DNA of 64,000 nucleotides, taken from Dysgonomonas sp. 520 (GTDB lineage Bacteria > Bacteroidota > Bacteroidia > Bacteroidales > Dysgonomonadaceae). Within the stretch, counting starts at the first letter, position 1. The number at the start of each line of letters is the position of its first letter. The translations under genes and the position numbers were made by a program. The notes beneath the pieces are model-generated. The model had not been told where the DNA came from. It did no database searches and saw nothing but the letters and a program-made list of their open reading frames with translations. The DNA lies in the NCBI RefSeq assembly GCF_010501095.1, contig NZ_QVMP01000001.1:62001-126000 (forward strand), written 5' to 3'. This document shows positions 37,652 to 47,244 of this stretch, piece after piece.

Positions 37652-37911
37652 TGCTTTATTTTTGCAATTATAAATATATTTTAACACATTTGAGTTTCAA
37701 ACTTTTCGAAAAATGATATTGTGCCGTTTCAGGTATAGTATCTTCTATGCAAAATACATATCTGAATTTTAAGAAAATAAAAGTTAAACTTAATATTCTA
37801 TGCTTATGAAGGCAAAAAAAACTACTCTTGACAATTGTGGTTCTCCTAGCATGGTGGAACGTGAAACCAATGCAGGCACAGGATGTATTTCCTACATCGG
37901 ATGCTATATGG
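37652..37911 (+). repeat. Leader and signal-peptide repeat, copy 1
   Basis: About 260 bases covering promoter, leader and signal-peptide region recur at 38783-39045 and 39922-40181. Positions 37688-37911 (224 bases) are identical to 39958-40181. The distal -7 box TATTTTTG is at 37657-37664; the proximal box is altered to CACATTTG (37685-37692). Confidence 0.9.
37814..37821 (+). repeat. A8 homopolymer in copy 1, frame OFF
   Basis: Eight A follow GGC, eight bases after the start of the ATG at 37806. With this length the ATG frame stops at 37927-37929; with seven A it would run into the long frame. Confidence 0.8.
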
Positions 37912-38754
37912 GTGATACATATGTATGAGGCTTTTAAAGGTGGACAACAGTTTGTATATGGTTTGTCTGGTGATACCATAATGAATGAACTGACATATCA
38001 AAAACTTTATTTACTGAATGACACTACATTGAATATTGACAGAGGAGACGTTTTTGTGGCAGGCATTCGACAAGTAGATAAAAAAGTGTTGGTGCAGCCA
38101 GCAGACAAAAAAGATGGCTCTAAGTTTGAAGAGTTCTTGATGTATGATTTCTCTAAAAATGTGGGTGATACAATTTATTTTGATAATAGGCCTTATATGG
38201 GATATGGGAATTTTTGCTCTACATTCGAATGTGTTGATAAAAACGATATTAGAGGTATGGTTGGTATATTAATGAGCATATTTGAAAATGTATATGATAT
38301 TGCTCCATGGACAGGTTCAGGAGATTTATGGATGCCAATGATTGGGAGTATTAGAGGAGGTCTATTTTTTTCATACAGAGGCTTTTTTAGTGGACCTGGA
38401 GGATCAGAAGGTTGCGAATTAATTTGTATGAAAGAAAAGAATAACGTAAAATACATGAAAGAAGGCTGTACGTCTTGCTTTGAAACACCAACAGCATCAA
38501 TTGAAAATAATAATATTGAAAACCAATTAAAGGTTGCTTACAAACAAAAAGATAAAATTATTAAAATCATTTTTAGCGAGTTTGTTCCCGGATTAGATTT
38601 TGTCCTATTTACAGCAAATGGAGAAGTCGTAAATACTTTCGCCTTAGCCGATTCTCTAACCAACATTAATGTCCATTCTCTTTCTGCTGGACTATACCTA
38701 TATAAAATTGCAGGAAAAAATAGATACCAAAGTGGAAAGTTAATTATTGATTAA
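37828..38754 (+). CDS. Secreted T9SS-type protein, paralogue 1, signal peptide out of frame
   Basis: The open frame begins after the A8 run. The natural starts, ATG at 37800 or 37806 (as in paralogue 2), are one base out of frame, so the ATG-initiated product ends early. With one A fewer the product would start MKAKKLLLTIVVLLAWW, a normal signal peptide. The mature part has PTSDAIWVIH, YGLSGDTIMNELTYQKLYLLND, FVAGIRQVDKKV, EEFLMYDFSKNVGD and GGLFF, a pattern common in Bacteroidota T9SS cargo of unknown role. The last 75 residues (FVLFTANGEVVNTF, SAGLYLYKIAGKN, GKLIID) form a type A sorting domain. The frame is otherwise intact, which argues against an old pseudogene. A TTG at 37828 would lack the basic n-region. 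Confidence 0.75.
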   Translation: MTIVVLLAWWNVKPMQAQDVFPTSDAIWVIHMYEAFKGGQQFVYGLSGDTIMNELTYQKLYLLNDTTLNIDRGDVFVAGIRQVDKKVLVQPADKKDGSKFEEFLMYDFSKNVGDTIYFDNRPYMGYGNFCSTFECVDKNDIRGMVGILMSIFENVYDIAPWTGSGDLWMPMIGSIRGGLFFSYRGFFSGPGGSEGCELICMKEKNNVKYMKEGCTSCFETPTASIENNNIENQLKVAYKQKDKIIKIIFSEFVPGLDFVLFTANGEVVNTFALADSLTNINVHSLSAGLYLYKIAGKNRYQSGKLIID

Positions 38755-38782: not shown

Positions 38783-39045
38783 TGCTTTATTTTTGCAATT
38801 ATAAATATATTTTAATATATTTGAGTTTCAAACTTTTCGAAAAATGATATTGTGCCGTTTCAGGTATAGTATCTTATATGCAAAATACATATCTGGATTT
38901 TAAGAAAATAAAAGTTAAACTTAATATTCGATGCTTATGAAGGAAAAAAAACTACTCTTGACAATTGTGGCTCTCCTAGCATGGTGGAACGTGAAATCAA
39001 TGCAGGCACAGGATGTATTTCCCACATCAGATGCTATATGGGTAA
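38783..39045 (+). repeat. Leader and signal-peptide repeat, copy 2
   Basis: It differs from copy 1 at about ten positions. Both -7 boxes are intact (TATTTTTG 38788-38795; TATATTTG 38816-38823). Confidence 0.9.
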
Positions 39046-39893
39046 TACATAAATATATTGAAAAAAATGAACAGATAATATATGGTTTATCTGGTGATAC
39101 AATAATCAATGAGCAGACCTATAAAAAGCTCTATTTGTTGAATGATACTACATTGAACATTGATGAAGGAGACATTTTTGTGGCAGGCATTCGACAAGCA
39201 GATAAAAGAGTATGGGTACAACCAGCAGACAAAAAAGACGGCTCCAAATTTGATGAATTCTTGATGTATGATTTCTCAAAATCAGTTGATGAAGAAATAA
39301 ATTTTGGAAAAAAACCTCCAATGATGGGATGGCCTCCTAACAATTGTTTCTCATTTGAATGTGTAAGTACAAATATATATAATACAACAGGAGTAGTATA
39401 TAGTGTAGAAAAAAATAATGATAATGTTTTTTTGTATATAGATACAGAAAATTCTATAGGTCTTGATATATGGATAGAAGGTATAGGGAGTCTAGGAGGA
39501 CTATTTTTTCATCCTCTTCAGTTTCCAAGTGGGTTTGGTTCTCCAATTGGTTATCAATTGATTTGTATGAAAGAAAAGAATCACGTAAAATACATGAAAG
39601 AAGGCTGTACGTCTTGCTTTGAAACACCAACAGCATCAATTGAAAATAATAATATTGAAAACCAATTAAAGGTTGCTTACAAACAAAAAGATAAAATTAT
39701 TAAAATCATTTTTAGCGAGTTTGTTCCCGGATTAGATTTTGTCCTATTTACAGCAAATGGAGAAGTCGTAAATACTTTCGCCTTAGCCGATTCTCAAACC
39801 AACATTAATGTCCATTCTCTTTCTGCTGGACTATATCTATATAAAATCACAGGAAAAAATAGATACCAAAGTGGAAAGTTAATTATTGATTAA
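38931..39893 (+). CDS. Secreted T9SS-type protein, paralogue 2, in frame
   Basis: This is the only one of the three copies whose start codon is in frame with the body. The ATG at 38937 gives MKEKKLLLTIVALLAWW, a clean signal peptide ending MQAQ; an ATG two codons earlier (38931) is also in frame. The 320-residue protein has the same N-terminal half as paralogue 1, a different centre (about residues 120-210; FGKKPPMMGWPPNN, WIEGIGSLGGLFF) and a C-terminal third nearly identical to paralogue 1, with the sorting domain ending GKLIID. The IEGIGS-x-GL motif and CTSCFETP are typical of this secreted family. The ligand or function is unknown. Confidence 0.85.
   Translation: MLMKEKKLLLTIVALLAWWNVKSMQAQDVFPTSDAIWVIHKYIEKNEQIIYGLSGDTIINEQTYKKLYLLNDTTLNIDEGDIFVAGIRQADKRVWVQPADKKDGSKFDEFLMYDFSKSVDEEINFGKKPPMMGWPPNNCFSFECVSTNIYNTTGVVYSVEKNNDNVFLYIDTENSIGLDIWIEGIGSLGGLFFHPLQFPSGFGSPIGYQLICMKEKNHVKYMKEGCTSCFETPTASIENNNIENQLKVAYKQKDKIIKIIFSEFVPGLDFVLFTANGEVVNTFALADSQTNINVHSLSAGLYLYKITGKNRYQSGKLIID
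38944..38951 (+). repeat. A8 homopolymer in copy 2, frame ON
   Basis: Eight A follow GG directly. Compared with the other copies, the C before the run is missing or has become A, which restores the frame. Confidence 0.8.
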
Positions 39894-39921: not shown

Positions 39922-40181
39922 TGCTTCATTTTTGCAATTATAAATATATTTTAATATATTTGAGTTTCAAACTTTTCGAAAAATGATATTGTGCCGTTTC
40001 AGGTATAGTATCTTCTATGCAAAATACATATCTGAATTTTAAGAAAATAAAAGTTAAACTTAATATTCTATGCTTATGAAGGCAAAAAAAACTACTCTTG
40101 ACAATTGTGGTTCTCCTAGCATGGTGGAACGTGAAACCAATGCAGGCACAGGATGTATTTCCTACATCGGATGCTATATGG
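39922..40181 (+). repeat. Leader and signal-peptide repeat, copy 3
   Basis: Identical to copy 1 from 39958 on. The distal -7 box has changed to CATTTTTG (39927-39934); the proximal TATATTTG (39955-39962) is intact. Confidence 0.9.
40084..40091 (+). repeat. A8 homopolymer in copy 3, frame OFF
   Basis: The same GGC-A8 as in copy 1, with the same loss of frame from the ATG at 40070 or 40076. Confidence 0.8.
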
Positions 40182-41018
40182 AGTGTCTATGTATATTCAT
40201 ATGAACCAACAAAACACTTCATTTATGGCTTATCAGGAGATACCATTATTAATGAACAGACCTACCAAAAACTTTATTTATTGAATGATAGCACATTGAG
40301 TATAGATGAAAGTGATGTATATATCGGAGGAATAAGACAGAATGAAAAGATTGTTTATTTAAAACCTGCTGATAATATTTATGGTACGATTCTAGAGGAA
40401 TATATTTTGTATGATTTTTCAAAAAGAACAGGAGAAAAAGTCTTATTTGGAAGGTTTTATACCGACCCATATTACAATGAGCCGACACTAAAACACATAA
40501 CAGAAACATCAAACAATATAGATGATATTATAGAGAAAGATGAGATCGTAAATTTAGGTAGAATGATACAACTAAAGGAAACTAGAGAAAAGTGGATTGA
40601 GGGAATTGGTAGTCTCTCCGGATTTTTTTTCTCTCCGATTACTTATCCTTTAGATGGATCTGGAAAACCTCTGGGAGGAAGTCTTATTTGTATGAAAGAA
40701 AAGAATAAAGTAAAATATAGTAATCTCGAACATTGTGGAACATGTTTTGATTCTCCTGTAAACTCTATTGTGATTAACAATATCAATAATCAAATTAATG
40801 TAAAATATAATGAAAATACAAAATCACTAGAAATTCATAACACTATAAATGATGTTTTCTTTAAACTTATAATGTATAATATTAATGGTCTCAAAACGAA
40901 GGCAATCGAAAGCAATATTTCGACAAGTATTGATTTGTCAAATTGTGCTCGGGGAATCTATATCTATCAAATTATAGGTGAAAACATCTCTCAAAAAGGG
41001 ATATTTATTACTCATTGA
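40098..41018 (+). CDS. Secreted T9SS-type protein, paralogue 3, signal peptide out of frame
   Basis: The signal-peptide region is base-for-base that of paralogue 1, including the extra base that puts the ATG (40070/40076) out of frame. After PTSDAIW the protein diverges: YEPTKHFIYGLSGDTIINEQTYQKLYLLND is family-typical, the centre and the C-terminal third are its own. WIEGIGSLSGFFF and SLICMKEKNKVKYS are conserved. The C-terminus (FFKLIMYNINGLKT, CARGIYIYQIIGENISQ, GIFITH) is a divergent type A sorting domain. The body is intact over 306 codons. Its stop lies 19 bases before the C25 protease start, so both may share an mRNA whether or not this copy is translated. Confidence 0.75.
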   Translation: MTIVVLLAWWNVKPMQAQDVFPTSDAIWSVYVYSYEPTKHFIYGLSGDTIINEQTYQKLYLLNDSTLSIDESDVYIGGIRQNEKIVYLKPADNIYGTILEEYILYDFSKRTGEKVLFGRFYTDPYYNEPTLKHITETSNNIDDIIEKDEIVNLGRMIQLKETREKWIEGIGSLSGFFFSPITYPLDGSGKPLGGSLICMKEKNKVKYSNLEHCGTCFDSPVNSIVINNINNQINVKYNENTKSLEIHNTINDVFFKLIMYNINGLKTKAIESNISTSIDLSNCARGIYIYQIIGENISQKGIFITH

Positions 41019-41037
41019 AATATTTAATGTAACATCT

Positions 41038-44000
41038 ATGAAGAAATCATTTTTACTGCTTACAACTTTACTACTATCAATGGGGCTATTTTCCCAGGTT
41101 GGAGGGAGAGTTAATTTTGCGCCTAGTGAGTTAGAGGTAATATCATATGGAGAATTCGTTCGGTTTTCTTTACCAAACACAGAATCTGGGGATGATGTTG
41201 GCACCCCTGAATTACCATATGTAATTCAATCTTTTATAATTCCTACAAATGCTAATGTAACAGGCATTCGAATCAATACATTGACAAAACGAAAATTGCC
41301 AGGAGCATTTTACGTATATCCATCACAGCCTCCAATTCCTGTGAACAACAAATATGAGGGGGCATTTAGAATGGATACGGTTTTGTATAATACACAGTTA
41401 CCATTTCCAAACAAACCAGTCTCAATAGTTTCGGATCATTATGAATTGGGTTATCGTATTGTAACTGTAGGTATCTGCCCTATAGAATATATTCCTCGCT
41501 CAAAAGAAGTATATCTTTGTAATATAGACTTCAGTTTGGAATATTCGGCTACTGTTCCGTTGAAAAGTGAATCAGAAGAATTGTCAAAACAATCCCAAAT
41601 ACAAAAAGATTTCGTAAAAAAACATATTAAAGCTATAGTACAAAATCCCGATGATGTGGAGAGATTTTATCCATCAACGACCATTGTATCCCAGTCAAAA
41701 GGAATTGTTGAGCAAAAAATGACAAAATCATCATTCGTAAAAGAGGAGATTGTTCCCAGATATATAATAATTACGAATAACGAATTAAAGCCGATATTTC
41801 AGGAACTAGCAGACTGGAAAACAAAGAAAGGTGTACCCACCATAATCAAAACTACAGAAGAAATTATCCCAAATTACAAAGGAGTAGATGTCCCTGAAAA
41901 GATAAGGAATTATCTGATAGAGGCTAGATCGAAATGGGGTACTGGCTTGTTTGTTTTATTAGGTGGCAATACAGATATTATACCTGGAAGAATAGTGTCA
42001 GGATATCCTACCGATTTATATTATGCAACAACAAGAGGGACATGGTATTCTGGTAACAGGTTTTCGGCATCTGTTGATGGTCACGATTTTTATCTGGGAA
42101 GAGCACCAGTGAAAGATATTGCAGATGTACAGACTTTTATCAAAAAAATATTAACTTATGAAAAAGCAAAAGATGTAGATCGTGAATATTATAATAATTT
42201 TCTTGTTGCTTGTGCACATCTAGATAGATCTGATTGCATATCACTTTCTCAAAAAGAGCAAATAAGATTTACAAGAGGAGGATATGAAGAATATTTGAAA
42301 ACAATTAAACATGTTAAAGAGACCAATTTACCTTCTCATATAAAAGAAAAATCAATATTAATGTATGACAATTTTGATTGCTCTGGCACAAAATATAATT
42401 ATAAAAATTACAATGACACAATTTGCTCATACAAAATGAGCAACGGATCGGTAATCGAAGTTCAAAGACCAACTCCACCATATTCTATAGATTGTCCAGT
42501 TGCAGATATTGAATTGAATAAAATAAACTTTTATTCACTATTACAGAAACAAAATCAACCAAATAAGAATATACATATTGTCTACCACTTAGATCATTCG
42601 AGTATAAGTAGCATTGGAGCATCATCAAAAGACAAAGGAATGGATATAACAAAAGAAGATATTTTCCGACTAAACAATGAAAATTATTTGCAAATCATGT
42701 ATTCGGCAGGTTGTAAACCTGCAACTTTTAATTACGACTGCTTTGGTGCAAATTATTTAAACAACTCTAATGGTGGATGTGTTGCTTTTATTGGTAATTC
42801 TGATGATGGCTACTATTATGAACATGACGAATTTGCCAGATTTATTGATTACTTATATAATGATACTACTTGTTACAATTTAGGATATGTTTTTCGGAAT
42901 ACGAGTAAACCAACGAATACATCTGGTAAACGCCGTTTAACCCTCCTCGGCGATCCCGAGATGCCTGTGTGGACGGCAACACCGCAAAACCTGAATGTTA
43001 CGGCTAATGCCACACCCTCCACACCGGGCAAGACCAATGTAGCTGTCACAATAAACGGTTTTCCCTCTGATAAAAAAGCAATGCTCTGTATCATGAAAGG
43101 CAATGAAGCCTATATGGCAGAAGAAGTAACGGGAGCCGGTCCGCATCGTTATGAGATAGATTCATACACAAAAGACAGTATTGATGTTACTGTCACTTCC
43201 CATAATTATATTCCTTTCACAAAGCGTTATGCGGATTCGTCCAATTACAACACAAATGTTTCCATTGATAGCCTTGTTTTTTATGATAGCAATGGTGATA
43301 AACAACTTGATGCGGGAGAAACAATTGAATTGACTGTTCGGCTTAAAAACACGGGGTCGGCAACAGTAAACAATGTTTCAGCGACTCTCAACTGCACATC
43401 TTCTCATATAATAATGCAGGAACCGTTGGCAAACTTTGGCAATATTGTAGCAGGCGGAACCAACTCATCGCTTACGAAATATAAATTCAAGATAAAAGAA
43501 AATGCACCCGAGATATTGAAAAACGATACTCTGGGTATGGCTATTACTTTCAGGTTGGATATAAAGGATGCAGCGAGTGCTAATTATTATGATAAATTCA
43601 ACATAGAAGTGCATACTCATAAAATTGAAGTGAGAGATCAGACTATTATCAATACAACCAATAATAACAAAATTATAGAACCGGGAGAAGTTGTAAGGAT
43701 GAAGGTTGATGTATTCAATGCCGGAAAAGCAGAAACAGCAGGTCTTAAAGCACAGATGATTCAAGAACCACCTATAGTTATCTTTTCTGGTCCATGTACT
43801 TACCCTAATATAAAATATCAGGAAACAATGCAAAACAATTCCGAGTTTACATTTTCTGTTTCTAATTCTTACATTACAGGTAGTGCTTTAAATATCCGGT
43901 TGGCTATTGCAAATGCTTATGGACGACAAGATACACTCTCTTTCAATCTGCTAGATAAACCAGGTAATATACTTTTCGACAATATAAAATTTGAGAGTGA

Positions 44001-45936
44001 CAAGACAGAGATCGCCTTATACTGGAATAAGCCTTTAGGAAACTTTACCATACAAGGTTATAACATTTACAGGAGCGATACAGAGAATGGAACTTATACG
44101 AAAGTAAATACATACCCTGTCCCTCATACTTATTTCAAGGATTATAATCTCCAACCACTAAAGAAGTATTACTATAAAATAAGCGCTGTTTCAAATTCGG
44201 GGAATGAAGGGAACCAGTCAGGTGTATTTACCGCTTGGACTACCCCTCCTGCTTCCGGGCTTTTCCCTGTAACAATGAATATAAGTATTCCTAATTCGAG
44301 AATGATAGCTCCAATAGCCTACGATGTGGATAACGATGGTAAAAAAGAGATTTTCACTGCAATGGCGGGAGAGGACAACTCTAAGGTAGGGCATTTGATA
44401 GGTTTGAATCATGAAGGTAAAGAATTATTCGATGTAGATAATAATGTAACTACAACGGGCGAATTTTCCAACCTGGATGCTGTAATCAGAGCCCCAGTAG
44501 CTATTGGTGATTTGTATGGAACAGGCAAAAACTATATTGTTTCCGTTACACGCGAAAATTACGGAAATCAGAACTATATAACTGTCTATGGCATGGAGAA
44601 AGATGAAAACAATAGACCCCGAATCGAATTCAAAAAAATACTCCCTTCGAATGAATATTATCAGCAGGCTCCGATATTAGCAAATATTGATAATAGTCCG
44701 GATGGATCTATGGAAATCATCCTGCATTCAGATATAGATAACAACCTGATAAAGGTATTGGACAATCGTTTAGAGGAACTATGGTGTGTAGCAAATCCTT
44801 CGGTTGACAAATGGAATGCGGGTGCGCCTGTTGTCGCTGATATAGACAATGATGGAAGAATGGAAATAATAGCAGGATGCCGTGAAGGTATATACATCTG
44901 GGATTGTTATGGAAAACGATTTATAAAATCAGGTCCTCCCAATTATGATTATGATGAATGGTACTATAGTTCTCCGGGGTATTCGTTCCATCATACACCC
45001 GTGGTTTGCGACCTTTACAACAACGGACAAAAGAAAATTATTATGAGGGCAAATAGAGGAGCAGATGAAAGCTATATTCACGTTACAGATTATAATGCAA
45101 ACCTTGATGTCAAATGGGGAAAAGAGCATCAGAAGATTACAAATATTGGAAACAAAGATGGAGCATTTCCATTTTCAGTAGGTAATTTGACTGGAACAGG
45201 GGGACTTGAGATTGTAGCTTCGGGTAAAGATGCACTTAAGGTATGGGATAGTAACGGTAATATTATTTTAAACAAAAGCATGGAGATTGAATCTGCAATG
45301 CCTCCTATCTTGGCAGATCTGGATGGAGACGAAGAAATTGAGATACTGATCGCACCTAAAAAAGATGGTAAGATTTATGGATTAAAGTTGGATGGCTCTG
45401 ATGTTGCAGGCTTCCCAATACAGATACCATCAAATTATCGCCATGCACCATACTTATCTGTTGCTGATATTGATGGTGATGGGAATAGTGAAATAATGGC
45501 AGTAGCTAATGGTGTTGTATATGTTTGGAAAACGAATGGAAATGCAAATAGAATTGAATGGGGAAGTTCAAGGCACAATGCTCAAAATACTGGAGAACAT
45601 GGAATAATATGTCCTCCGTTGTTGATAAATACAAATACTCAATGGAATAATACACAAAATATATGTGGAAATATCATAATAGAATCCGGGAAAAGTTTAA
45701 CATTGGAATCAAATGCAATAATTACAATGGAAAAGCAAGCTTGTATTATTGTTAAAGAAGGAGCGTCATTGATAGTCAACGGCGGAAAAATCTATCAAGC
45801 TAATGTCAAGGCTCTGTCAGGCAGTAATGTCCAGTTGAAGAATAATGCCTACATCAAGTTGAGGCATAGTGGACAATTCGAGGTACAACTAGGTGCAGTT
45901 TTTGAAAATCAATATGGAACAATTGACAAATATTAA
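41038..45936 (+). CDS. Gingipain-like C25 cysteine protease with CARDB-like, Fn3 and FG-GAP repeat domains
   Basis: From the ATG at 41038 the protein has 1632 residues with a signal peptide (SFLLLTTLLLSMGLFSQ). Residues about 20-190 match the C25 propeptide (GTPELPYVIQSFIIP). The peptidase domain, about 230-640, holds YIIITNNELKPIFQELADWK, LLGGNTDIIPGR, YHLDHSS with His517 and His520, and SAGCKPATFNYDCFGANYL with Cys559 as likely nucleophile. CARDB-like domains (about 740-960), an Fn3 domain (about 980-1075) and FG-GAP/VCBS-type repeats with D-x-D-x-D-G loops (YDVDNDGKKEI, ADIDNDGRMEI, ADLDGDEEIEI, ADIDGDGNSEI) follow. The last 110 residues are a beta-helix-like stretch ending GTIDKY; I see no classical T9SS sorting domain. 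Role: surface or secreted protein degradation, inferred. Confidence 0.88.
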   Translation: MKKSFLLLTTLLLSMGLFSQVGGRVNFAPSELEVISYGEFVRFSLPNTESGDDVGTPELPYVIQSFIIPTNANVTGIRINTLTKRKLPGAFYVYPSQPPIPVNNKYEGAFRMDTVLYNTQLPFPNKPVSIVSDHYELGYRIVTVGICPIEYIPRSKEVYLCNIDFSLEYSATVPLKSESEELSKQSQIQKDFVKKHIKAIVQNPDDVERFYPSTTIVSQSKGIVEQKMTKSSFVKEEIVPRYIIITNNELKPIFQELADWKTKKGVPTIIKTTEEIIPNYKGVDVPEKIRNYLIEARSKWGTGLFVLLGGNTDIIPGRIVSGYPTDLYYATTRGTWYSGNRFSASVDGHDFYLGRAPVKDIADVQTFIKKILTYEKAKDVDREYYNNFLVACAHLDRSDCISLSQKEQIRFTRGGYEEYLKTIKHVKETNLPSHIKEKSILMYDNFDCSGTKYNYKNYNDTICSYKMSNGSVIEVQRPTPPYSIDCPVADIELNKINFYSLLQKQNQPNKNIHIVYHLDHSSISSIGASSKDKGMDITKEDIFRLNNENYLQIMYSAGCKPATFNYDCFGANYLNNSNGGCVAFIGNSDDGYYYEHDEFARFIDYLYNDTTCYNLGYVFRNTSKPTNTSGKRRLTLLGDPEMPVWTATPQNLNVTANATPSTPGKTNVAVTINGFPSDKKAMLCIMKGNEAYMAEEVTGAGPHRYEIDSYTKDSIDVTVTSHNYIPFTKRYADSSNYNTNVSIDSLVFYDSNGDKQLDAGETIELTVRLKNTGSATVNNVSATLNCTSSHIIMQEPLANFGNIVAGGTNSSLTKYKFKIKENAPEILKNDTLGMAITFRLDIKDAASANYYDKFNIEVHTHKIEVRDQTIINTTNNNKIIEPGEVVRMKVDVFNAGKAETAGLKAQMIQEPPIVIFSGPCTYPNIKYQETMQNNSEFTFSVSNSYITGSALNIRLAIANAYGRQDTLSFNLLDKPGNILFDNIKFESDKTEIALYWNKPLGNFTIQGYNIYRSDTENGTYTKVNTYPVPHTYFKDYNLQPLKKYYYKISAVSNSGNEGNQSGVFTAWTTPPASGLFPVTMNISIPNSRMIAPIAYDVDNDGKKEIFTAMAGEDNSKVGHLIGLNHEGKELFDVDNNVTTTGEFSNLDAVIRAPVAIGDLYGTGKNYIVSVTRENYGNQNYITVYGMEKDENNRPRIEFKKILPSNEYYQQAPILANIDNSPDGSMEIILHSDIDNNLIKVLDNRLEELWCVANPSVDKWNAGAPVVADIDNDGRMEIIAGCREGIYIWDCYGKRFIKSGPPNYDYDEWYYSSPGYSFHHTPVVCDLYNNGQKKIIMRANRGADESYIHVTDYNANLDVKWGKEHQKITNIGNKDGAFPFSVGNLTGTGGLEIVASGKDALKVWDSNGNIILNKSMEIESAMPPILADLDGDEEIEILIAPKKDGKIYGLKLDGSDVAGFPIQIPSNYRHAPYLSVADIDGDGNSEIMAVANGVVYVWKTNGNANRIEWGSSRHNAQNTGEHGIICPPLLINTNTQWNNTQNICGNIIIESGKSLTLESNAIITMEKQACIIVKEGASLIVNGGKIYQANVKALSGSNVQLKNNAYIKLRHSGQFEVQLGAVFENQYGTIDKY

Positions 45937-45960: not shown

Positions 45961-47244
45961 ATGAAAGCATATAAATTATTAACGATAGCAATATTATTAT
46001 CCATCTCGCTAGTTGCAACAGCACAATTTAAAGTAGACAGTAATGGTAGAGCCAACTTCGGAAGCGCAACCACGACTAATTATAGTAAGTTAAATATTGG
46101 AGTTGATGGATATCGTAACGGAATAGCTTTTTCGAATGGATCAGGAACTCCGTTCTATATCTTCAGGAGTGGTGATAATGCATATCTAAGTAGAAACACA
46201 AATAGCCAGAAAGGATTATTTATGAACAATATGGGTCAAATTGTTATCGGACGGCAGGCATATGATGGATCTACAGGCATACAGGGACGTGTTACAATAT
46301 ATCCATCAACCTTGCAAACCAGTTTAGCTGTCTTTGGGCATTGGGATATTTCAAATGGCGGCGACATACTTAAGGTGTTGTCATATAATCCATTGGCAGC
46401 CAGTTATGCTGGCTGGTATATAGATAAAACAACCAAAGAATGGCATAAAACATTTTTCGTATTAACAAATGGTGAAGTTTACTCGAACTTTCACTTGATC
46501 ACATCCGACAAATCAACGAAAAGTAATATCGAGACAATAACTTCGCCACTAGAAAAAGTGATGCAACTAAGAGGGGTTACCTTTAATTCTCAATTTACCG
46601 ATAATCAGGAAATTAAAATTCAGGATATGGAAGAATATCGAAAAAAAGAAGGACAATCCGAAATTATAAATTTCAAAAGTACATCCGAACTAGTTCAGCA
46701 GATTAATTTAGAGAAGAAAAGAAAGCATATGGGAGTTGTGGCTCAAGAAGTAGAAAAAGTTGTCCCCGAAGTGGTGCGTACATCTTATGATGGGAAAAAG
46801 GCTGTTTCTTATGTCGAATTGGTGGGCTTATTAATTGAAGCCATGAAAGAACAACAAGTACAAATTGAAGATCAGCAACAGCAAATAGAGAATCTTCAAC
46901 GATTAGTATCTCCTAATGTTATGACAAAAAAAACCGGACAAGATGAAGCAATATCGTCGGATATATCCGGTGTTGTTATCTCTAATAATAAACTGTATCA
47001 AAATATCCCCAACCCGTTTTCGATAAATACAGAGATACGTTATTTCTTGGAAGATAATGTTAAAAATGCAAATCTTTATGTTTATGATATGCAAGGGAAA
47101 CAAATCAAGAATATAACAAATCTGTTTAGGGGAGAAAACTCCATAACAATCAATAGCTACGAATTAACTCCGGGAATGTATATTTATTCCCTCATTGCAG
47201 ATGGTAGAGAAATAGATACCAAGCGAATGATTTTAACAGATTGA
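45961..47244 (+). CDS. Secreted protein with S74 intramolecular chaperone domain and T9SS sorting domain
   Basis: The 427-residue protein has a signal peptide, a beta-rich head (about 22-175; VDSNGRANFG, IVIGRQAYDGSTG), an S74 peptidase/chaperone domain from about 180 (TSDKSTKSNIETITSPLEKVMQLRGVTF, MGVVAQEVEKVVPEVV, VSYVELVGLLIEAMKEQQ) with a coiled coil rich in Gln and Ile, and at 346-427 a textbook type A sorting domain (LYQNIPNPFSINTEIRYFL, GMYIYSLIADG, KRMILTD). Ser182 and Lys187 have the spacing of the S74 Ser-Lys dyad. S74 domains trimerise phage tailspikes and cut themselves off. It starts 24 bases after the C25 gene, probably in one operon. Confidence 0.9.
   Translation: MKAYKLLTIAILLSISLVATAQFKVDSNGRANFGSATTTNYSKLNIGVDGYRNGIAFSNGSGTPFYIFRSGDNAYLSRNTNSQKGLFMNNMGQIVIGRQAYDGSTGIQGRVTIYPSTLQTSLAVFGHWDISNGGDILKVLSYNPLAASYAGWYIDKTTKEWHKTFFVLTNGEVYSNFHLITSDKSTKSNIETITSPLEKVMQLRGVTFNSQFTDNQEIKIQDMEEYRKKEGQSEIINFKSTSELVQQINLEKKRKHMGVVAQEVEKVVPEVVRTSYDGKKAVSYVELVGLLIEAMKEQQVQIEDQQQQIENLQRLVSPNVMTKKTGQDEAISSDISGVVISNNKLYQNIPNPFSINTEIRYFLEDNVKNANLYVYDMQGKQIKNITNLFRGENSITINSYELTPGMYIYSLIADGREIDTKRMILTD

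Follow-up and report, generated by a model that had tools for sequence, protein, structure and literature searches.

One of the closest described counterparts of the protein analysed here is MYRF, a eukaryotic transcription factor with a transmembrane helix and an internal S74/ICA chaperone domain that has Ser at position i and Lys at i+5. According to the available parts of two reports (PMC3742443; PMC8326128), both residues are needed for cleavage, which sets the N-terminal trimer free and leaves the part behind the ICA anchored in the membrane. Among bacteria, Bdellovibrio builds trimeric MAT fibres whose protein Bd3182 carries an S74 domain with the motif SDxxxK; it is cleaved at its Ser, and the S782A variant is uncleaved. 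Bd3182 forms a long fibre with the S74 domain at the protein end, and the accessible portion of its description (PMC10769870) mentions neither a T9SS domain nor a hydrolase partner. Phage tailspikes and tail fibres of the endosialidase type share the Pfam domain, which there ends the protein.

Cargo of the T9SS is processed by PorU and attached to the cell surface, and the gingipains carry their own T9SS sorting domain. Substrates of the system cross folded and need a signal peptide together with a folded C-terminal domain, as stated in the available text of PMC9251779. Ordinary type A cargo (TIGR04183 / PF18962) bears its own enzyme. In the literature covered, which included few subscription papers, we found no description of an S74 domain combined with a T9SS domain, nor of the coathanger partner described below; "S74" in PMC11385106 is, in the text available, only a sample label.

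The window (the whole stretch of DNA analysed, 64,000 nucleotides) encodes such a combination in a short-headed fibre protein of 427 aa that starts with ATG (45961..47244, + strand, as are all window features given below; ORF list, Pfam, NCBIfam, alignment, AlphaFold). A signal-peptide-like start (residues 1-21; 45961..46023), judged by eye as a hydrophobic run followed by AQF and modelled as a helix at 2-19, precedes a head or fibre stalk of 160 aa (residues 22-181; 46024..46503), which was modelled as a monomer with low-confidence strands. Behind the head lie the S74/ICA chaperone with its long C-terminal helix (residues 182-316; 46504..46908; Pfam, alignment, model, PDB matches), a linker modelled with low confidence (residues 317-340; 46909..46980), and a T9SS type A sorting domain (residues 341-427; 46981..47241; PF18962, TIGR04183, model, structure matches). 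The original prediction, made from the sequence alone, had placed a self-cleaving chaperone between a head and a T9SS signal at residues 346-427, and this layout is borne out by the ORF and by three profile matches over their cut-offs. Peptidase_S74 (PF13884) matches residues 182-273 (49.5 bits, E 5.4e-13, Pfam, cut-off 22), so that the profile starts at Ser182; Por_Secre_tail (PF18962) matches residues 350-423 (32 bits, Pfam, cut-off 27) and TIGR04183 residues 350-424 (36.8 bits, cut-off 23).

The AlphaFold model, built on a 24-row alignment, has high confidence in the sorting domain and over most of the chaperone but low confidence in the head, as might be expected of a head that folds only as a trimer. 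The long helix of the S74 region occupies residues 284-316 in the model. Among PDB structures the model best matches the MyRF ICA (7dc3, E 4.8e-4), with the T9SS substrate NucA (8glk_D, E 7e-3) further down the list. PHROG tail families match within residues 22-317, the best of them at 171-308, near the profile end; the phage domain is terminal, whereas the window protein adds a linker and a sorting domain. All 50 rows of the VIA-align comparison, among the matches listed, fall within residues 331-427 and therefore carry no information on S74. The profile match, the SDxxxK spacing and the predicted fold with its long helix point to membership of the Peptidase_S74/ICA family. The protein also appears to have the features of type A cargo, namely the signal-peptide-like start, the sorting domain and the machinery in the genome: a search for PorU-type sortase and SprA returned two sortases (NF033707, both over cut-off) and SprA (TIGR04189). 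The two PorU-type sortase genes, both well over the cut-off, lie in tandem at G000:C4:64428-67787 and 68857-72174 (- strand; L269 and L268). The genome that holds the window encodes another S74 protein, in which the domain sits at the C-terminus as usual and no T9SS tail follows.

This arrangement, which the original prediction had set against the C-terminal S74 of phage proteins, is not singular: the order head-S74-T9SS is recurrent in Bacteroidota, and an internal S74/ICA with an anchored C-terminal part is known from MYRF, as the available text of PMC3742443 describes. PF13884 is present in 185 of 393 genomes of the window's order and in 107 of 395 of a phylum sample. The 267 loci gathered yielded 1903 ORFs, 288 of them with S74, of which 132 have a T9SS domain behind it (277 and 126, respectively, when only unique ORFs are counted). 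On a FastTree phylogeny of 263 S74 domains the tail label changes 32 times, with 5 changes forced by well-supported branches, and the architecture has therefore been gained or lost repeatedly. The label for the Ser-Lys dyad changes 12 times on the same tree, 9 of them among tailed rows, with many forks unresolved, and an independent-pairs comparison of tail against dyad had too few pairs. By a crude start rule, the median head measures 154 aa in tailed proteins (n=87 with usable start) versus 380 aa in untailed ones (n=66).

Immediately upstream of the S74 gene lies a neighbour that the original prediction had missed. An ORF of 1652 codons (40978-45936; likely ATG at 41038, giving 41038..45936) ends 24 bp before the S74 gene and encodes a C25 peptidase with FG-GAP repeats (PF01364, E 6e-45, Pfam). 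Pfam, NCBIfam and our T9SS model find no T9SS sorting domain in this protein; in its sequence the candidate partner would thus be a C25 peptidase lacking the gingipain type of sorting domain of its own. Ordinary T9SS cargo resembles the window fibre in its sorting domain and genomic machinery but differs in carrying the enzyme itself, which in the window is encoded next door with no signal.

The last 70 residues of the C25 protein (45724..45933) match models built here of a beta-solenoid, "coathanger"-like end. Left out of training, this end was recovered at E 0.0013, and a model built from 47 other partners, which had been picked with earlier models, matches it at E 2.7e-12, with no other window ORF of at least 100 aa matching better than E 1.3. 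AlphaFold predicts a ladder of short strands (mean pLDDT 77), for which no PDB match was found at E<=0.001 (best 0.17). NF045639, the GCX_COOH "3-coathanger stack", does not match the window C25 protein and has no match at E<=0.01 in the window genome, a silence shared by 14 control genomes. Because only the wider models built here match, the window end is not filed as GCX_COOH, although NF045639 does match 16 of the 47 partner proteins at E<=0.01.

The same pairing is seen in the named relatives L003-L010, where the S74+T9SS gene adjoins a large secreted-looking protein (in L003, one gene away). The ends of these neighbours were later matched by the coathanger model or used in building it, except in L008, whose S8 neighbour the coathanger models failed to confirm (E 4.8, 0.22, 0.13). 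Pfam domains were assigned to the neighbours in six of the eight loci: C25 (L005, L006, L010), M6, S8 and GH16. The L004 partner ends in NF045639 over cut-off, and that of L003 scores just below. The enzymes of the 47 partners (GH16 15, C25 9, C1 4, M12-type 4, S8 3, C10 2, and others) are unrelated, so it is the shared end, not the enzyme, that goes with the fibre. No sorting domain was found by PF18962 (E<=0.001) or TIGR04183 (E<=0.01) in the 47 partners scanned, and the T9SS model matched none of 56 coathanger-ended proteins at E<=1; a signal-peptide-like start was assigned to 53 of the 56 by a crude hydrophobicity rule.

To quantify the association, we trained an HMM on eight ends, those of seven named loci and that of the window, and scanned with it the last 90 residues of ORFs taken from 16 kb of the window, from L003-L011 and from 80 further loci. 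After one model iteration, a coathanger-ended ORF was present within 5 kb on the same strand for 43 of 50 S74+T9SS genes in 50 test loci, which were hand-picked from the listed S74+T9SS places, none of them in the training set, and the choice of which was not blind, because their neighbour ends had been inspected before model building. The distance is at most 0.35 kb for 27 of these partners and 0.4-1.9 kb for 16, often with one gene between, and the positive loci come from 35 genomes and 27 family codes. The corresponding count for control genes in 30 loci is 0 of 44 (13 untailed S74 and 2 T9SS-only genes from ten loci, 28 T9SS-only genes and 1 untailed S74 gene from twenty). A lone S74+T9SS gene in the control loci (L342) has no coathanger partner either. 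Nine of ten T9SS-only genes inside test loci have a partner; they share the neighbourhood and hence are no control. In L290 (4883-9109), one coathanger-ended protein is flanked by two S74+T9SS genes of the same cassette.

The original prediction regarded the head itself as cargo and named, as one of two options, self-cleavage after export that frees a trimeric head; in this model the neighbour plays no part. The dyad is kept, and long-headed S74+T9SS proteins with no partner do exist and could work in this way. The window head is short, however, and its gene is paired, and pairing follows head length: a partner accompanies 43 of 51 short-headed (<250 aa) versus 1 of 24 long-headed S74+T9SS genes (Fisher p 1.4e-11), a contrast that pools test, control and long-head loci and ignores kinship, 9 of the 24 long-headed genes coming from one genome (G613) and only 8, one of them with a partner, from the window's order. 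The first coathanger model alone gives 39 of 51 versus 1 of 24. The long-head set comprised twenty loci fetched as long-headed, two of which proved short, and includes two with little downstream sequence (L388, 1.0 kb; L391, 0.3 kb); among the eight short-headed genes with no partner, L277 and L306 have 1.6-2.1 kb downstream and L305 is a cut ORF. This is the contrast one would predict were short heads adaptors and long heads cargo in their own right. For the window protein the head is probably not the main cargo, a role that may instead fall to the nearby hydrolase, and we consider export for the sake of the head alone quite improbable here.

A third gene family completes the locus. Upstream of the C25 gene lie three tandem copies encoding mutually homologous proteins of ~300 aa with weak T9SS tails (37828..38754, 38931..39893 and 40098..41018), the last of which ends 19 bp before the likely C25 ATG and has a tail below both cut-offs. 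Outside the sorting domain, these proteins are homologous to proteins of other S74+T9SS loci. Searching at E<=0.01 with a model of eight sequences (the three window copies and five from test loci) recovered the family in 20 of the 50 S74+T9SS loci (15 of 45 when the seed loci are left out), three matches being weaker than 1e-4, and in 0 of 70 other loci (10 untailed-S74, 20 T9SS-only, 20 GCX_COOH, 20 long-head). From this homology and recurrence, the window shows a cassette of three copies of the third gene, a C25 hydrolase and an S74 fibre.

Gene neighbourhood is not interaction, and we infer contact between the S74 protein and its partner from the pairing. Co-evolution of heads and coathangers beyond relatedness was not seen in 43 pairs (partial Mantel r 0.03, p 0.19). 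The pairing is also one-sided, because most of the NF045639 places listed lie away from S74+T9SS genes: the family occurs in 84 of 295 genomes, and among the matches listed only a small part is near such genes. From these matches we sampled 20 non-S74 loci with 26 ORFs. A T9SS-like tail closes eighteen of the ORFs, 9 of them recognised by HMM at E<=0.05 and the others by eye, and the remaining 8 ORFs end in or just behind the coathanger. All eight of the latter, and some of the 18, lie within 0.7 kb of another fibre-like family, whose members end in a helix of the type ..EELTLY/H..; the 14 fibres of this type gave neither a T9SS match (best E 7.1) nor a clear S74 match (best E 0.028). Terminal-coathanger proteins near the ..WPDYVF..EELTLY.. 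fibre family, which has no T9SS domain, were seen in L355, L357, L360, L362, L363 and L366. Judging by these sequences, the association of coathanger ends seems to extend to coiled-coil fibres in general.

These findings bear on whether the fibre exports its partner or merely displays it. The hydrolase might take its own route, with the coathanger perhaps serving as a sorting or anchoring signal, and simply dock on a T9SS-anchored fibre as on a pedestal. That NF045639 is a recognised domain found in many places away from S74+T9SS genes fits this proposal, as does the location of all eight terminal-coathanger proteins beside fibres with no T9SS domain; because those fibres too are without one, not every pair shows or needs a T9SS signal, and these cases favour docking over export in trans as the common theme. 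Weighing on the other side are the T9SS-like tails of the non-S74 ORFs, 18 of 26 as against 0 of 56 in S74 loci, which looks like a signal supplied either in cis or in trans. We regard a pure pedestal as possible, if on the unlikely side.

Whether the fibre would cut itself depends on the putative catalytic pair, Ser182 (46504-46506) and Lys187 (46519-46521), which have catalytic-pair spacing, since the sequence from residue 182 reads SDxxxK, as the original prediction had pointed out. Close homologues keep the dyad, with Ser, Asp and Lys unchanged across all 10 S74+T9SS rows of alignment A1, so the original prediction withstands its own refuting condition, close homologues that lack Ser or Lys at these places. 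In alignment A2, which comprises the window and 23 of 51 references prepared, S182, K187, G258, A261, P269 and Y284 are invariant in all 24 rows. More widely, the pair is present in 107 of 120 tailed and 144 of 148 untailed S74 ORFs, which is not a fair comparison of rates because sampling favours the dyad in both classes, tailed genes having come mostly from a profile seeded only with dyad-bearing sequences and untailed ones largely from the top of score lists. Ser ranks 6th and Lys 9th in conservation among 117 scored columns, three columns above them being all-gap. Conservation of the dyad, as aligned, exceeds chance.

Misalignment was considered as the source of dyad absence, but 13 of 120 tailed ORFs remain exceptions even though those starting behind the dyad position (6 tailed and 3 untailed; cut, split or unclear) had been removed before the count. 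Lys is aligned in none of the 13 and Ser in three, as expected if the pair works together; in some of them the remaining S74 is degenerate as well, and L232 seems frame-shifted, with no dyad in the frames read. In two of the six dropped tailed ORFs (L136, L163) the dyad is visible in an upstream piece; either a stop or frameshift interrupts the S74 region of these S74+T9SS genes, or their assemblies are in error. L250 and L168/L251 encode headless S74+T9SS proteins in which a signal-peptide-like start nearly abuts the S74 domain and both catalytic residues are replaced. The closest relative, L003, has an in-frame stop around 999 between the S74 part and the T9SS tail, which reflects either a MAG error or a genuine truncation that leaves a classic protein ending in S74.

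With 13 exceptions and biased samples, we rejected dyad conservation as proof of cleavage. Nor can cleavage, whose timing had been proposed as a control point, be an obligatory one, because 13 of 120 tailed ORFs have no aligned pair and the partner is kept in all five dyad-less loci fetched (L301, L307, L308, L309, L311); pairing is therefore independent of cleavage. Such proteins, with tail and partner retained, would suit a stable trimeric surface protein in which S74 acts as a trimerisation chaperone only and the dyad is a relic or structural. The window S74 also has Ser in place of the Arg of the SDxR position, an Arg found in 50% of tailed versus 82% of untailed S74 sequences. Yet conservation at the Ser and Lys columns is among the highest, the 13 exceptions include three with an aligned Ser but not one with an aligned Lys, and Bd3182, with the same SDxxxK, cleaves at its Ser while S782A does not, as the available text of PMC10769870 reports. 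A fibre that never cuts itself is in our judgement unlikely, and by analogy with MYRF and Bd3182 cleavage of the window protein is likely.

We favour, at a probability of about one half, a reading in which the short trimeric fibre helps to display or export the secreted hydrolase encoded beside it, in the window the C25 peptidase. Trimerisation of the head would be the task of the S74 domain and its coiled coil; the T9SS sorting domain would carry the fibre across the outer membrane; and the head would dock the hydrolase, which has a beta-solenoid end and lacks a T9SS signal. Once the trimer had folded, Ser182 and Lys187 would probably cut the chain before Ser182, as in phage tailspikes, the Bdellovibrio MAT fibre and MYRF, separating the head and anything bound to it from the chaperone and the sorting domain. 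The part behind S74 (341-427) would be anchored as in MYRF, with the difference that MYRF is a eukaryotic transcription factor held by a transmembrane helix, whereas the window encodes a predicted secreted bacterial protein with a T9SS domain behind its chaperone. In lineages with no dyad, the head would remain joined to its anchor. The domain layout, the conserved dyad, the neighbouring genes and the lack of a detectable T9SS signal in the partner are observations; the trimer, the docking, the cleavage and its timing relative to export are inferences drawn from them.

A stronger version of this reading is a two-partner T9SS pathway with a self-cutting handle: hydrolases would have swapped their own signal for a beta-solenoid and would ride out on a signal-bearing trimeric fibre, to be freed when the chaperone cleaves itself after folding, while dyad-less lineages would keep the enzyme tethered. 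We hold this full scheme to be rather doubtful.

The observation from which the analysis started is confirmed and its interpretation partly supported: the chaperone of self-cleaving type between head and T9SS signal is real, but it recurs elsewhere, and MYRF offers a logical precedent. The apparently new element is the company kept by the short-headed S74+T9SS protein, a hydrolase gene that has no signal; that such proteins usually sit near such an enzyme gene in related bacteria suggests a system of two parts for export or display. Should this pairing be functional, signal-less hydrolases of Bacteroidota (C25, GH16, S8, C1, M12 and others) could be exported or displayed by the T9SS through a partner, and lists of cargo based on sorting domains would therefore miss them. 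A folding-sensor domain of phages would have gained a new bacterial job, comparable to that in MYRF, and a single point mutant would allow a direct test of whether folding, export or cleavage comes first in the T9SS and what follows.
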